Assembly: GCA_029834535.1 (NCBI GenBank)
Contig: JAQMWT010000334.1
Span: 310,001 to 374,000 of the forward strand
Length of the DNA: 64,000 nt
From: Chrysophaeum taylorii
Lineage: Eukaryota; Sar; Pelagophyceae; Pelagomonadales; Pelagomonadaceae
Direction of reading: 5' to 3'
Under the pieces are notes generated by a model that saw only the letters and a list, made by a program, of their open reading frames with translations, made no database searches and was not told the DNA's origin. Both the position numbers and the translations under genes were made by a program. Below are positions 55,016 to 58,437 of this stretch, piece by piece (position 1 is the first letter of the stretch; every line of letters starts with the position of its first letter).

Positions 55016-55762
55016 TTACGAACCGTCGGAGGAGGAGCCCTCCTCCTCCTCCCCCTCCTCAGAAGAAGAAGAAGAAGAAGAAGAAGAAGAAGAAGAATCT
55101 CCCTCCTCTTCTTCATCGCCATCATCATCGGTGCCCGGGTCCTCATCGTCGTCGTCGTCGTCGGAGGTGGGGAACTTGTGCTTGGTGAGAAGCTTTTTGG
55201 CGTGGCCCGATTTGGCCGCGGGGACCCCGATGGTGGCGAGGTCGGCTTGTGATAGTCCGTGGTCCCGAATCAAGTCGAAGTCAAAGCCCGCGTCGAGGAT
55301 CCCGGACAAGTAAGCCTCGCAGCCGATGGTCTGGAGCCATCGCCGGAGCTTGTGGTGGTTGTGGGTGCCGCCGGTGTCCAATGCAGTGGCGATCGCATCC
55401 AAGCCCTTGGCTCGAGCGATCGCGAGCGCCCTCGCGGTGTCGTCGGCGCCGTGCCCGAGGAGTTCGTTGACGGTTGCTGGGTGGCCCCCAACCACGGCAT
55501 ACAACAAGGGCGTAAAACCGTGGGAATCTCGCAGGTTGACGTCGGCGCCGGCTTCGATAACGAGAATCCGCACCACCGACACTTGGCCATAGCGCGCCGC
55601 CACGTGCAGCGCGGCGTGACAGGGCCTGCACCTCGAGGTGCTGATCGCCCCTACCCTCGCCCCCGCCGCGAGCAACCCCCTGACCGCCTCGTCGTCGCCC
55701 TCGGCCGCGGCAAGCTGCAAGGGGCGCCACTCGTCGAAGCGAAAGGGGGCGTTGACATCCAT
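55016..55762 (-). CDS. Ankyrin-repeat and SAM-domain protein
   Basis: 248 residues from the ATG at 55762. Three ankyrin repeats: WRPLQLAAAEGDDEAVRGLLAAGA, a variant ALHVAARYGQVSVVRILVIEAGAD, and GFTPLLYAVVGGHPATVNELLGHGAD. Then comes a SAM domain (about 130-195): LRRWLQTIGCEAYL, FDFDLIRDHGLSQADLATIGV, KSGHAKKLL. The tail is acidic with a Ser run coded by (GAA/TCC-type) repeats. The domain pair is typical of protein-interaction scaffolds; no enzymatic part is present. It is divergent with the PP5 gene, the starts being 68 bp apart, which may couple their expression. Confidence 0.85.
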   Translation of the reverse strand: MDVNAPFRFDEWRPLQLAAAEGDDEAVRGLLAAGARVGAISTSRCRPCHAALHVAARYGQVSVVRILVIEAGADVNLRDSHGFTPLLYAVVGGHPATVNELLGHGADDTARALAIARAKGLDAIATALDTGGTHNHHKLRRWLQTIGCEAYLSGILDAGFDFDLIRDHGLSQADLATIGVPAAKSGHAKKLLTKHKFPTSDDDDDDEDPGTDDDGDEEEEGDSSSSSSSSSSSSEEGEEEEGSSSDGS

Positions 55763-55830
55763 ATCACCGTTGGGTTCCAACGGACTTACGAGTCGTCGTC
55801 GTCGTCGAAAAAGCGACAACAACACCAAAA

Positions 55831-58437
55831 ATGGTCGAGGTGGTGGCGACGACCGAGGCGTCGTCGTCCGTCGAGAACAAGACGAACGACGAGGAGAGCA
55901 GCAACGGTCACGCGATGATGGTGGTGTCGAGTAATGCATCTTCGAGGATCGAGAGCCTCAAGTCGCGGGGGAACGCGGCCCTCGCCGCAGGGAACCCCGC
56001 GCAGGCCGCCGCCCTGTACACGTCAGCGATCGAGGTCGACGCCGCGTCACCCGTGCTTCCCGTGTTGTATTCGAATCGTGCGATGGCCCACATCAAGGCC
56101 GAATCGTACGGGTTAGCCATCGCCGACGCCGAGCAGGCGATAAAGATGGACCCGACGTACATCAAGGCTTACTACCGGCGGGGCTCGGCAAACTTTGCCC
56201 TCGGCAAGTATCGGCTCGCCCTCCGGGACTTTAAGAGCGTCTGCAAGCTTCGCCCGACGGACCGCGACGCGAGGGCCAAGTTGCGCGAGTGCGAGAAGGC
56301 GGCCAAGCAGCTCGCTTTCGCGAACGCGATTTTGTCCGGCGATTCGGAGCAGGCTCTGCGAGGGTCCGACGTCGACGCGATCGTCGTCGAGGACTCGTAC
56401 GATGGTCCGCGCCTCGAGAACCGGTTCGACGACGACGACCTCGTCCAGGCAACGATGGAGAGGTTCCGCGCGCAAAAATTGATCCATCGCAAGTACGTTC
56501 TCCAGATTCTCCTGAAGACGCGCGACGCGCTCAAGGGGGAACCCAGCCTCGTCGACCTCTCGCTTCCCGCGTCGTCCAAGCGCTACACGATATGCGGCGA
56601 CGTCCACGGCCAGTACTACGACTTGCTGAAGATTTTTGATCTCAACGGTCTCCCGACGCCCGACAACCCCTACGTCTTCAACGGCGACTTCGTGGATAGG
56701 GGGAGCTTTTCGTTCGAGGTCGTCCTCACGCTCTTCCTCTGCAAGCTTCGGCATCCCACGGGCGTCCACCTCAACCGCGGCAACCACGAAACAAAAAATA
56801 TGACCAAAATATACGGGTTCGAGGGCGAAATCAGGCACAAGTTCGACTCGACCGTCCTCGGGCTCTTCCACGAGTGCTTTCGGCTCCTGCCGCTGGCCGC
56901 GTGCCTCGAGAGCCGCGTCTTCGTCGTGCACGGCGGCCTCTCGAGCGATGACGACGTCACCCTCGACGACATCCGCGCCATCGACCGCGAATGCGAACCC
57001 CCCGACTCGGGACTCATGTGCGATCTTCTCTGGTCGGACCCGCAGCCTGCGCCCGGGCGCGCCCCTTCGAAGCGCGGCGTCGGCCTCTCGTTCGGCCCCG
57101 ACGTCACGAAGCGCTTCCTCGACCGCAACGACTTGTCCCTCGTCATCCGTTCCCACGAGGTTCGCGACAACGGCTACGAACTCGAGCACGGCGGCCAGTT
57201 GATCACCGTCTTCTCCGCGCCCAACTATTGCCTCGCGCGCGACGCCCAAATCCTCACGAACCGCGGCTTCCTTTTTCTCGACGACTTCGTGGACGCCTTT
57301 TGTCGTTTTCCCGAACGCGAAGCGCTCCTCGTCGCTGGCTACGATCCAGAGTCGGACGAGCTCGTCTGGGAAAGGCCGCTGAGCCTTATCGTCAACCGTT
57401 CGGAACCCCAAACTTTGCTCGAGTTGAACTCGGACGACCTCTCGCTCCTCGTCACGCCCGAGCACCAGATGTACGTCCAGCGCCGCTACGGGGAGGAGGA
57501 GGCGACGACGACGAGCCGGACAGAAGACGATACCAACAAGCGCATCAAGCTTGACGTCCCCTACGCCAAGTGCCGCGCCGACGAGCTGCTGTCGACCGAG
57601 TCGTCGTCGTTTAACGATCGAGACCGCCCTCGACTCCGCGCCCTCGCCCGCGCGGGCGTTCGTGCTGCCAAGTCGAACGAGCGACAGAACTTCGTGGACG
57701 AACTCGGCCTAGACACCGACGACAAGATGATCGCCTTCCTCGAGATCTACGGTTACTGTGTCGGCGGTCTCGACGACGCGTCGAAGCACCCCGTCGGTCC
57801 CGGGGGGGACGCGTACCTCGATGATCGCTTCCGCGTTGTTGGGTTCGAGGCGGAGGCCTTCGTCCGCCGCTTCCGCGAGGAATCAAAAGGCAAAAAGGCG
57901 AGATTCTTCGACTGGGTCTGGCTGCTTAACCGCGACCGAGCGCGCGCCGTTCTTCGCGGGCTCGCCGCCGCCGACGAAGCTTCCGCCGCCGCCAATACCC
58001 TTCGAGTCGACACCTCGTCCATTATCTTCCGCGACGAACTGACCCGCCTCGCTCTCTGCGCGGGCTACTCCTCGCGTTTCTTTGCCGCGTACGAAGATGG
58101 CGTCGTCAAACATTGGTGCGTGGTCTCGACGACCGTCGCGGGCGTTGCCGAGCCGATCGTCGACAACGTCAAGCCCGTCGCCTACACGGGCCGTACTTGG
58201 TGCGTCTCTATGCCGAGCACCTTTATCTGGGCTCGCCGCGCTCGCAAGCACCCGACTGAAGATGTCGTCGCCGAGGCCTCTCGCCCCGTGATCGTCGGCA
58301 ACTGCGATGCCATGGGGAATAAAGGTGCCTTTGTCCACCTCGACCAAAACCTCACACCTACCTTCACCACCTTCGACGCCGCCCCCCACCCGCCCCTCAG
58401 GCCCATGGCCTACGCCTCCTCCACCTTTGGCTTGTAA
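55831..58437 (+). CDS. PPP5: PP5-type Ser/Thr phosphatase interrupted by an intein
   Basis: The 868-codon frame encodes a precursor. Residues about 40-150 are three TPR repeats (for example YYRRGSANFALGKYRLALRDF), followed by the PP5 linker and a PPP catalytic domain with all metal-binding motifs: GDVHGQ (residue 256), GDFVDRG (285), GNHE (317). At the active-site loop the sequence reads VFSAPNY, then 358 foreign residues (467-824), then CDAMGNKGAFVHLDQ and a normal C-terminus ending RPMAYASS. Without the insert the protein is 510 residues, the usual PP5 size. TPR-PP5 phosphatases bind HSP90 through the TPR and are autoinhibited. The Tyr-Cys of SAPNYC lines the catalytic groove, so the precursor should be inactive until spliced. 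No intron is seen. See the intein entry. Confidence 0.95.
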   Translation: MVEVVATTEASSSVENKTNDEESSNGHAMMVVSSNASSRIESLKSRGNAALAAGNPAQAAALYTSAIEVDAASPVLPVLYSNRAMAHIKAESYGLAIADAEQAIKMDPTYIKAYYRRGSANFALGKYRLALRDFKSVCKLRPTDRDARAKLRECEKAAKQLAFANAILSGDSEQALRGSDVDAIVVEDSYDGPRLENRFDDDDLVQATMERFRAQKLIHRKYVLQILLKTRDALKGEPSLVDLSLPASSKRYTICGDVHGQYYDLLKIFDLNGLPTPDNPYVFNGDFVDRGSFSFEVVLTLFLCKLRHPTGVHLNRGNHETKNMTKIYGFEGEIRHKFDSTVLGLFHECFRLLPLAACLESRVFVVHGGLSSDDDVTLDDIRAIDRECEPPDSGLMCDLLWSDPQPAPGRAPSKRGVGLSFGPDVTKRFLDRNDLSLVIRSHEVRDNGYELEHGGQLITVFSAPNYCLARDAQILTNRGFLFLDDFVDAFCRFPEREALLVAGYDPESDELVWERPLSLIVNRSEPQTLLELNSDDLSLLVTPEHQMYVQRRYGEEEATTTSRTEDDTNKRIKLDVPYAKCRADELLSTESSSFNDRDRPRLRALARAGVRAAKSNERQNFVDELGLDTDDKMIAFLEIYGYCVGGLDDASKHPVGPGGDAYLDDRFRVVGFEAEAFVRRFREESKGKKARFFDWVWLLNRDRARAVLRGLAAADEASAAANTLRVDTSSIIFRDELTRLALCAGYSSRFFAAYEDGVVKHWCVVSTTVAGVAEPIVDNVKPVAYTGRTWCVSMPSTFIWARRARKHPTEDVVAEASRPVIVGNCDAMGNKGAFVHLDQNLTPTFTTFDAAPHPPLRPMAYASSTFGL
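57229..58302 (+). other. Intein (358 aa) with LAGLIDADG-like insert
   Basis: Boundaries: Cys1 at codon 57229 and last Asn at 58300-58302, with Cys+1 at 58303. Block A is CLARDAQILTNRGFLFLDD; block B is LLVTPEHQMYV (TxxH, intein residue ~76). The centre holds a LAGLIDADG-type homing-endonuclease-like domain: FLEIYGYCVGGL (about residue 170), AVLRGLAAADEA (about 241) and SSIIFRDELTRLALCAGY. The C-terminal Hint part has block F, VAYTGRTWCVSMPSTFIWARR, and block G, RPVIVGN|C. The penultimate residue is Gly rather than His, as in some DOD inteins whose end reads GN before the +1 residue. The first endonuclease motif lacks the usual acidic residue, so cleavage activity is doubtful. The insert is in frame without stops, so splicing is evidently maintained. 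Confidence 0.93.

Follow-up and report, generated by a model that had tools for sequence, protein, structure and literature searches.

Inteins with a nucleophilic cysteine in first position (Cys1) splice by a well-known route: a thioester is formed at Cys1, the +1 residue attacks it, the terminal asparagine cyclises and the exteins are joined. To our knowledge, inteins of nuclear genes are considered rare and limited to a short list of hosts. Table 1 of a 2018 survey gives as common nuclear hosts PRP8, VMA1, RNA polymerase subunits, ThrRS, GLT, CHS and eIF5B; for nuclear genomes with several inteins, passages of the same survey offer examples of two and of three (PMC5784728). Here we describe a gene for a protein phosphatase 5 (PP5) from the pelagophyte alga Chrysophaeum taylorii which is probably interrupted by an intein, and the relatives of this insert in the same genome.

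The PP5 gene and its insert

The gene is located in a window of 64,000 nucleotides, i.e., the whole stretch of DNA which was analysed. The genome contains 84 matches to light-harvesting proteins; the best PDB matches are a mixture of LHCI chains from a single entry, fucoxanthin chlorophyll a/c proteins and others, which points to a photosynthetic eukaryote. Around the PP5 gene, the window holds housekeeping genes of nuclear type, namely those for a TCP1/CCT chaperonin, an SPT16-like protein, ORC3, enolase and a HAT-repeat splicing factor. Directly upstream and divergent, an ankyrin/SAM-like frame occupies positions 55016-55957 of the minus strand and at its end runs into the beginning of the PP5 frame region. 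On the plus strand, 893 codons are open from 55756 to 58437; the Met at 55831 yields a protein of 868 aa. The following features were assigned.

55831..58437, plus strand: PP5 gene carrying the probable intein, a single unbroken frame of 868 codons plus stop
55831..57228, plus strand: N-extein, 466 aa, with TPR repeats, PPP5 linker and a catalytic domain ending in SAPNY (from Pfam and solved PP5 chains)
57229..58302, plus strand: probable intein, 358 aa (match to TIGR01445 over 1-83 of 83; 12 relatives in the same genome)
57229..57267, plus strand: block A with Cys1 (CLARDAQILTNRG); Cys1, Leu9, Thr10 and Gly13 are invariant in 14 aligned N-modules
57454..57465, plus strand: block B, TxxH (TPEH, intein residues 76-79); T76 and H79 are invariant in six aligned full inserts
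57736..57777, plus strand: eroded LAGLIDADG motif 1 (FLEIYGYCVGGLDD), compared by eye with FFYLYGIWLGDGTL of a kinesin insert
57949..57984, plus strand: eroded LAGLIDADG motif 2 (VLRGLAAADEAS), compared by eye with ILRGLQFADGSE of a kinesin insert
58183..58224, plus strand: block F, including Cys325 (YTGRTWCVSMPSTF); all 13 aligned C-modules share an invariant Trp-Cys pair
58288..58302, plus strand: block G, VIVGN, with Asn358 as last residue; the terminal Asn is found in 13 of 13 inserts, with Gly (12) or His (1) ahead of it
58303..58434, plus strand: C-extein, 44 aa, whose +1 residue is the cysteine native to PP5 (alignment to residues 434-474 of PDB 5jjt_A)

The identity of the host protein is clear. 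Pfam reports TPR repeats, the PPP5 linker (2.7e-23) and a Metallophos domain (6e-35), i.e., the TPR, linker and PPP catalytic domain which define the PP5 class are all present. Solved PP5 chains match the N-extein in a PDB search with a best E of 1.5e-155. Both results agree with the first-pass annotation, which had read a TPR-PPP phosphatase up to SAPNY in a single frame. When a query spanning the insert was compared with PDB chain 5jjt_A, the piece ending in SAPNYC aligned with chain residues 411-434 and the piece starting with CDxMGNKGAF with chain residues 434-474. The two pieces share one and the same cysteine of the chain, residue 434; thus the insert ends named earlier are correct to the residue. 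The coordinates 57229..58302 and the length of 358 residues therefore hold, with 358 stop-free codons between SAPNY and CDAMGNKG. The same is true for the CDAMGNKG start and PP5 C-terminus proposed to follow the insert, since the C-extein aligns to 434-474, and for the proposal that joining the flanks restores SAPNYCD, since 5jjt_A is continuous across the join at cysteine 434. After removal of the insert 510 residues remain, the product length which had been predicted.

SAPNYC is unbroken in ten further frames of PPP type in this genome. Of 42 metallophosphatase places 30 were retrieved, and among these the PP5 described here is the sole one with TPR repeats; an inert insert would thus leave no other PP5 seen. 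As a side observation, the PPP phosphatase frames L023 and L024 on contigs C84 and C529 have equal scores and perhaps represent duplicated assembly contigs.

For the names of blocks A, B, F and G, the intein classes and the LAGLIDADG reading of the insert we follow what we take to be accepted usage. The four blocks seen at first pass have the described anatomy and are supported by alignments of the insert family. Cys1, TxxH, the F-block Cys, the terminal Asn and the native Cys+1 are kept; hence the PP5 insert has a position-1 nucleophile, a block B TxxH, a C-terminal Asn and one of Cys, Ser or Thr at +1, as an intein should. A penultimate His is absent from the PP5 insert and is replaced by Gly. 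In known inteins this His is no strict requirement; a green-algal chloroplast ClpP intein with a penultimate Gly is not known to splice in E. coli. Assignment to class 3, in which Cys1 is missing and splicing starts from the F-block Cys, was considered and rejected: in PP5 Cys1 is present, as is the F-block Cys. The proposed LAGLIDADG-like centre exists, yet exclusively in an eroded form (FLEIYGYCVGGLDD, VLRGLAAADEAS). Where an active endonuclease has two motifs with catalytic Asp, the PP5 insert has GYCVGGLDD and GLAAADEAS, and by eye both motifs are devoid of their in-place aspartates. The endonuclease thus looks dead and the PP5 intein probably no longer homes.

A family of related inserts

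Using the PP5 insert as query, 31 stretches of its own genome were matched; after extension of the search to other members, a block A pattern and wider loci, 14 N-modules and 13 C-modules of one family were identified. A DNA pattern of block A occurs at 12 places in the genome, its backward control at 0. Altogether, PP5 included, at least 13 inteins were counted in nine nuclear genes; the count becomes 11 inteins in eight genes if contigs C111 and C183 are diverged alleles.

PP5 (C334): one copy, 358 aa
UBR1/PRT6-type E3 ligase (C40): intein interrupting the UBR box
CDC27/APC3 (C40): intein of 220 aa without recognisable endonuclease motifs
Cyclic-nucleotide/ankyrin ion channel (C24): two inteins
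Kinesins, two genes (C110, C330): inteins both at kinesin-profile position 267
Dynein heavy chain (C138): two inteins, one at the linker end, one in AAA1 after the P-loop
Dynein heavy chains (C183, C111): two inteins each, at AAA1 profile positions 67/68 and 88/89

At the dynein insertion points 67/68 and 88/89 the AAA_6 profile resumes exactly where it left off, and the join is likewise seamless at kinesin-profile position 267 in both kinesin genes. AAA_6 was found on 17 contigs; three have inteins, eight read through both sites in one frame, and in the other six the reading is interrupted by other breaks. The dynein genes on C111 and C183 (L013, L016) are similar, have inteins at the same two sites and are either diverged alleles or paralogs; both contigs are short and lower in GC (~0.50 versus ~0.60).

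All 13 inserts begin with Cys and terminate with Asn. Twelve are followed by Cys at +1 and one by Ser; the terminal Asn is preceded by Gly in 12 cases and by His in one, and the Trp-Cys pair of block F is kept throughout (13/13). Block B TxxH was located for all members, in the C330 kinesin only within the second, duplicated N-module. In our view it is these 13 inserts with identical end residues in nine conserved genes which carry the case for inteins. Endonuclease motifs are intact, as judged by eye, solely in the C110 kinesin insert.

Three side observations concern the periphery of the family. The long inteins (L017:1932-4190, L014, L012, L015 and L016) share a region of ~150 residues between the LAGLIDADG motifs, from FLRELLGE... 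to ...FDLxxAR, which has no Pfam match. A stop-bearing remnant of the end of the C330 kinesin intein, joined to kinesin, is located at C552:124000-124900 (L061) and is evidently a decayed copy. L018 (C315), with a weak match at E 1.6, is not an intein.

The match to Hint profiles asked for at first pass was obtained in part. TIGR01445, the profile of the intein N-terminal region, aligned over its full length (model 1-83 of 83) with residues 1-83 of the insert alone at E 4e-4, with a score of 21.3 bits, which is under the cut-off of 24.5. In a scan of the entire genome (70.8 Mb) this profile found three places, among which PP5 ranked second (24.4 bits, or 24.6 when neighbours are included). The intein N-terminal profile is thus recognisable in the PP5 insert, below the cut-off when searched alone; the genome-wide scan with TIGR01445 misses the other 12 family members. 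The genome's best TIGR01445 place, C398:324039-324284 in an 1842-aa frame, scores 28.9 bits, above the cut-off, and may represent an additional intein from a different family. On the negative side, Pfam gave no match inside the PP5 insert at E <= 1, PF14890 had 0 matches over the whole genome, and a profile of six full inserts matched no PDB chain at E <= 1. A phmmer search of the PDB with the PP5 insert returned two chance matches and nothing else. Among six members, NCBIfam recognised the N-terminal model TIGR01445 alone, in two of six, with the C-terminal model unmatched; Pfam matched one of six (LAGLIDADG_3 at 0.085) and reported no C-terminal splicing profile; PHROGs matched one of six, at 0.067. 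HHalign against bacterial inteins was weak, with probabilities of 20 and 9, and the N-module alignment was out of register.

A different picture emerges with an HMM of the N-module, built on 12 of the 14 modules (UBR and channel-b were left out). With this HMM, none of the 1363 decoy frames ranked as high as 15 of the 28 N-terminal segments of bacterial inteins (best E 0.0018). All 14 DnaE segments are among these 15; being close to each other they do not constitute 14 independent tests. In the reverse test, bacterial profiles failed to separate the family modules from decoys in the rows listed, which do not comprise the PP5 module. The C-terminal module was not separated from decoys in a local HMM test. 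We regard the homology of the family N-module to inteins as shown at the level of sequence; the C-terminal half of the assignment rests on motif, position and family.

In phylogenetic trees support was limited to the dynein pairs of C183 and C111, at 2 of 11 and 2 of 10 inner branches. No supported position was obtained for PP5 in the family trees, its closeness to CDC27 being flagged as a long-branch effect, and its branch is among the longest in the C-module tree. The long and mostly unsupported branches indicate that the insertions are either old or fast-evolving. Comparing C183 with C111, the dN/dS of the inserts is 0.32-0.37 over four segments of 141-514 codons, that of the exteins 0.05-0.15. 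Thus, selection keeps the dynein inserts, less tightly than their hosts. On sequence grounds, this is one old, diverged intein family which occupies no fewer than 13 sites, nearly always ahead of a conserved cysteine.

Scans of viral contigs by short exact peptide patterns, which distant relatives can escape, found no relative of the insert family. Neither did a scan of prokaryotic genome contigs with the family, again by short exact peptide patterns, nor tblastn searches of phages. A viral or prokaryotic origin of the family is unsupported by these searches. Inteins of algal giant viruses commonly terminate in Gly-Asn and have arginines at the end of the F-block; as the viral contig scans returned no relative, a link to these is not supported here.

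Proposed protein splicing and its alternatives

We are highly confident that the PP5 insert is a cis-splicing Cys1 intein, which comprises its identity and what we infer to be its likely splicing. The insert would be translated as part of PP5 and excise itself, joining SAPNY to CDAMGNKG in a PP5 of 510 residues. By analogy to other inteins, an N-S acyl shift at Cys1, aided by T76 and H79 of block B, would be followed by transesterification, with the loop cysteine of PP5 itself serving as Cys+1, then by cyclisation of Asn358 and an S-N shift. The tyrosine and the cysteine of SAPNYC presumably belong to the loop with which okadaic acid and microcystin make contact in PP1. With the substrate loop split between Tyr and Cys, the precursor phosphatase should, by this analogy, be inactive before splicing.

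A penultimate Gly might indicate an intein which does not splice, or cleaves at one end only, and leaves PP5 fragments or an inactive precursor; yet the same Gly is present in 12 of 13 family members, several of them in genes expected to be essential. The eroded endonuclease, the PP5 branch among the longest of the C-module tree and the weak profile scores point in the same direction. They have to be weighed against the retention of Cys1, TxxH, Asn358 and Cys+1, a frame without stops, the lack of another TPR-PP5 among 30 of 42 places, and purifying selection on the dynein inserts, even though the exteins are more constrained. On balance we consider an intein which has lost splicing to be improbable.

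Could the 1,074 bases leave the mRNA as an intron which happens to be open? The genome uses introns freely, as illustrated by a clear GTGAGT...AACAG in a kinesin, and its GC-rich genes yield long open frames by chance. According to a hand calculation a stop-free stretch of 358 codons has a chance of ~5e-5 in random sequence at the insert GC of 0.635; an antisense frame, 56113-57708, is open by chance over 531 codons. Openness alone thus proves little here, and the ends of the insert are more informative. Because TGC is common to both insert ends, four equivalent excisions lead to identical exteins. They would be bounded by TG-AC, GC-CT, CC-TG and CT-GC, i.e., among these four no GT-AG, GC-AG or AT-AC intron restores the PP5 join. 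Intron-type ends are likewise absent from the joins of the UBR, channel-a and dynein-linker inserts, the three other valid rows of the join test (the rows for CDC27 and the C330 kinesin were left out). Further, GC3 is 0.79 in the insert versus 0.86 in the N-extein, relative codon usage of insert and exteins correlates with r 0.92, as is typical of coding regions, and intein residues are conserved across 13 copies. Judged from the exact ends, removal of the PP5 insert as an RNA intron is disfavoured, and we assign it a very low probability.

Introns may also be present within members of the family. Several inserts shift frame or have one stop. By eye, GT...AG stretches fit the break in five cases, namely in channel-b, in the C110 kinesin and at site 1 of the dyneins C183, C111 and C138, and in the C330 kinesin GTAAGT is positioned just after the first N-module. 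This kinesin (L015:3587-6357) has two N-modules ~700 bases apart and a single C-module; a CTGCAG-type acceptor is present at the matching place of the second N-module, as if the duplicate were spliced out as RNA. Spliceosomal introns thus seem to interrupt several of the family inteins. If true, RNA splicing within the intein code must precede protein splicing in the same gene.

That the insert is no intein, but a Hint-like regulatory domain kept in a working phosphatase, could be argued because splicing as well as a Hint fold are putative here, and is nevertheless hardly credible, as the insert sits between Tyr and Cys of what we presume to be the substrate loop, and retention of the same element in P-loop ATPase, kinesin-motor and zinc-finger cores is hard to square with function.

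Taking the PP5 insert as a splicing Cys1 intein, one can speculate about regulation. The Cys-dependent splicing of the family might be a shared post-translational switch, responsive for example to redox state or metals, by which flagellar motors, APC/C, an N-degron ligase and PP5 are activated jointly. In this scenario, a single family has invaded genes of motility, cell cycle, proteolysis, ion channels and phosphatase, at sites which invariably adjoin a catalytic or structural cysteine. We consider this proposal as a whole a long shot. The mycobacterial DnaB intein splices conditionally. Conditional splicing with metals is described for the Prp8 intein in passages of a further paper (PMC6805012). 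These two examples make a shared switch worth testing. With the native loop Cys as the predicted splicing nucleophile of PP5, conditional splicing is directly testable by a phosphatase assay.

Comparison with known inteins

The proposal that a PPP phosphatase is a new intein host fits the literature searched, including the main text of the 2018 survey (PMC5784728). The hosts found here are absent from Table 1 of this survey, and phosphatase, dynein and kinesin are absent from its main text (PMC5784728). The passages considered of PMC7765530 and PMC6805012 mention neither a PP5 or dynein intein nor such an expansion. In the literature searched, the scope of which excluded subscription papers and preprints, neither an intein in PP5 or dynein nor such an expansion was found.

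What is the significance of these findings? At least 13 inteins belong to a single family; dynein heavy chains account for six, and one ATPase domain can contain as many as two. Given such a family, protein splicing is able to spread within a nuclear genome much as a transposable element does. Different stages exist side by side: a full-length intein with endonuclease motifs (C110 kinesin), the eroded PP5 intein (358 aa) and one in which such motifs are not recognisable (CDC27, 220 aa).

Compared with protein phosphatase 5 as it is known, the TPR repeats, linker, catalytic domain and SAPNYCD are the same; here the loop is split by the probable intein. The bacterial DnaE inteins are detectably homologous to the family in their N-terminal half (14 of 14 segments above 1363 decoys), yet they are split and reside in DNA polymerase, and the C-terminal half of the family is unmatched to them. 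The nuclear inteins of fungi and protists, as portrayed in the parts of the 2018 survey considered, are like those reported here in-frame inserts at conserved functional sites, often with a LAGLIDADG endonuclease (PMC5784728). The family described here differs from them by its hosts, by at least 13 copies of one family, by the penultimate Gly and by the Trp-Cys pair in the F-block. In summary, we rate this as ordinary intein chemistry in a divergent family with new hosts and an unusual copy number.
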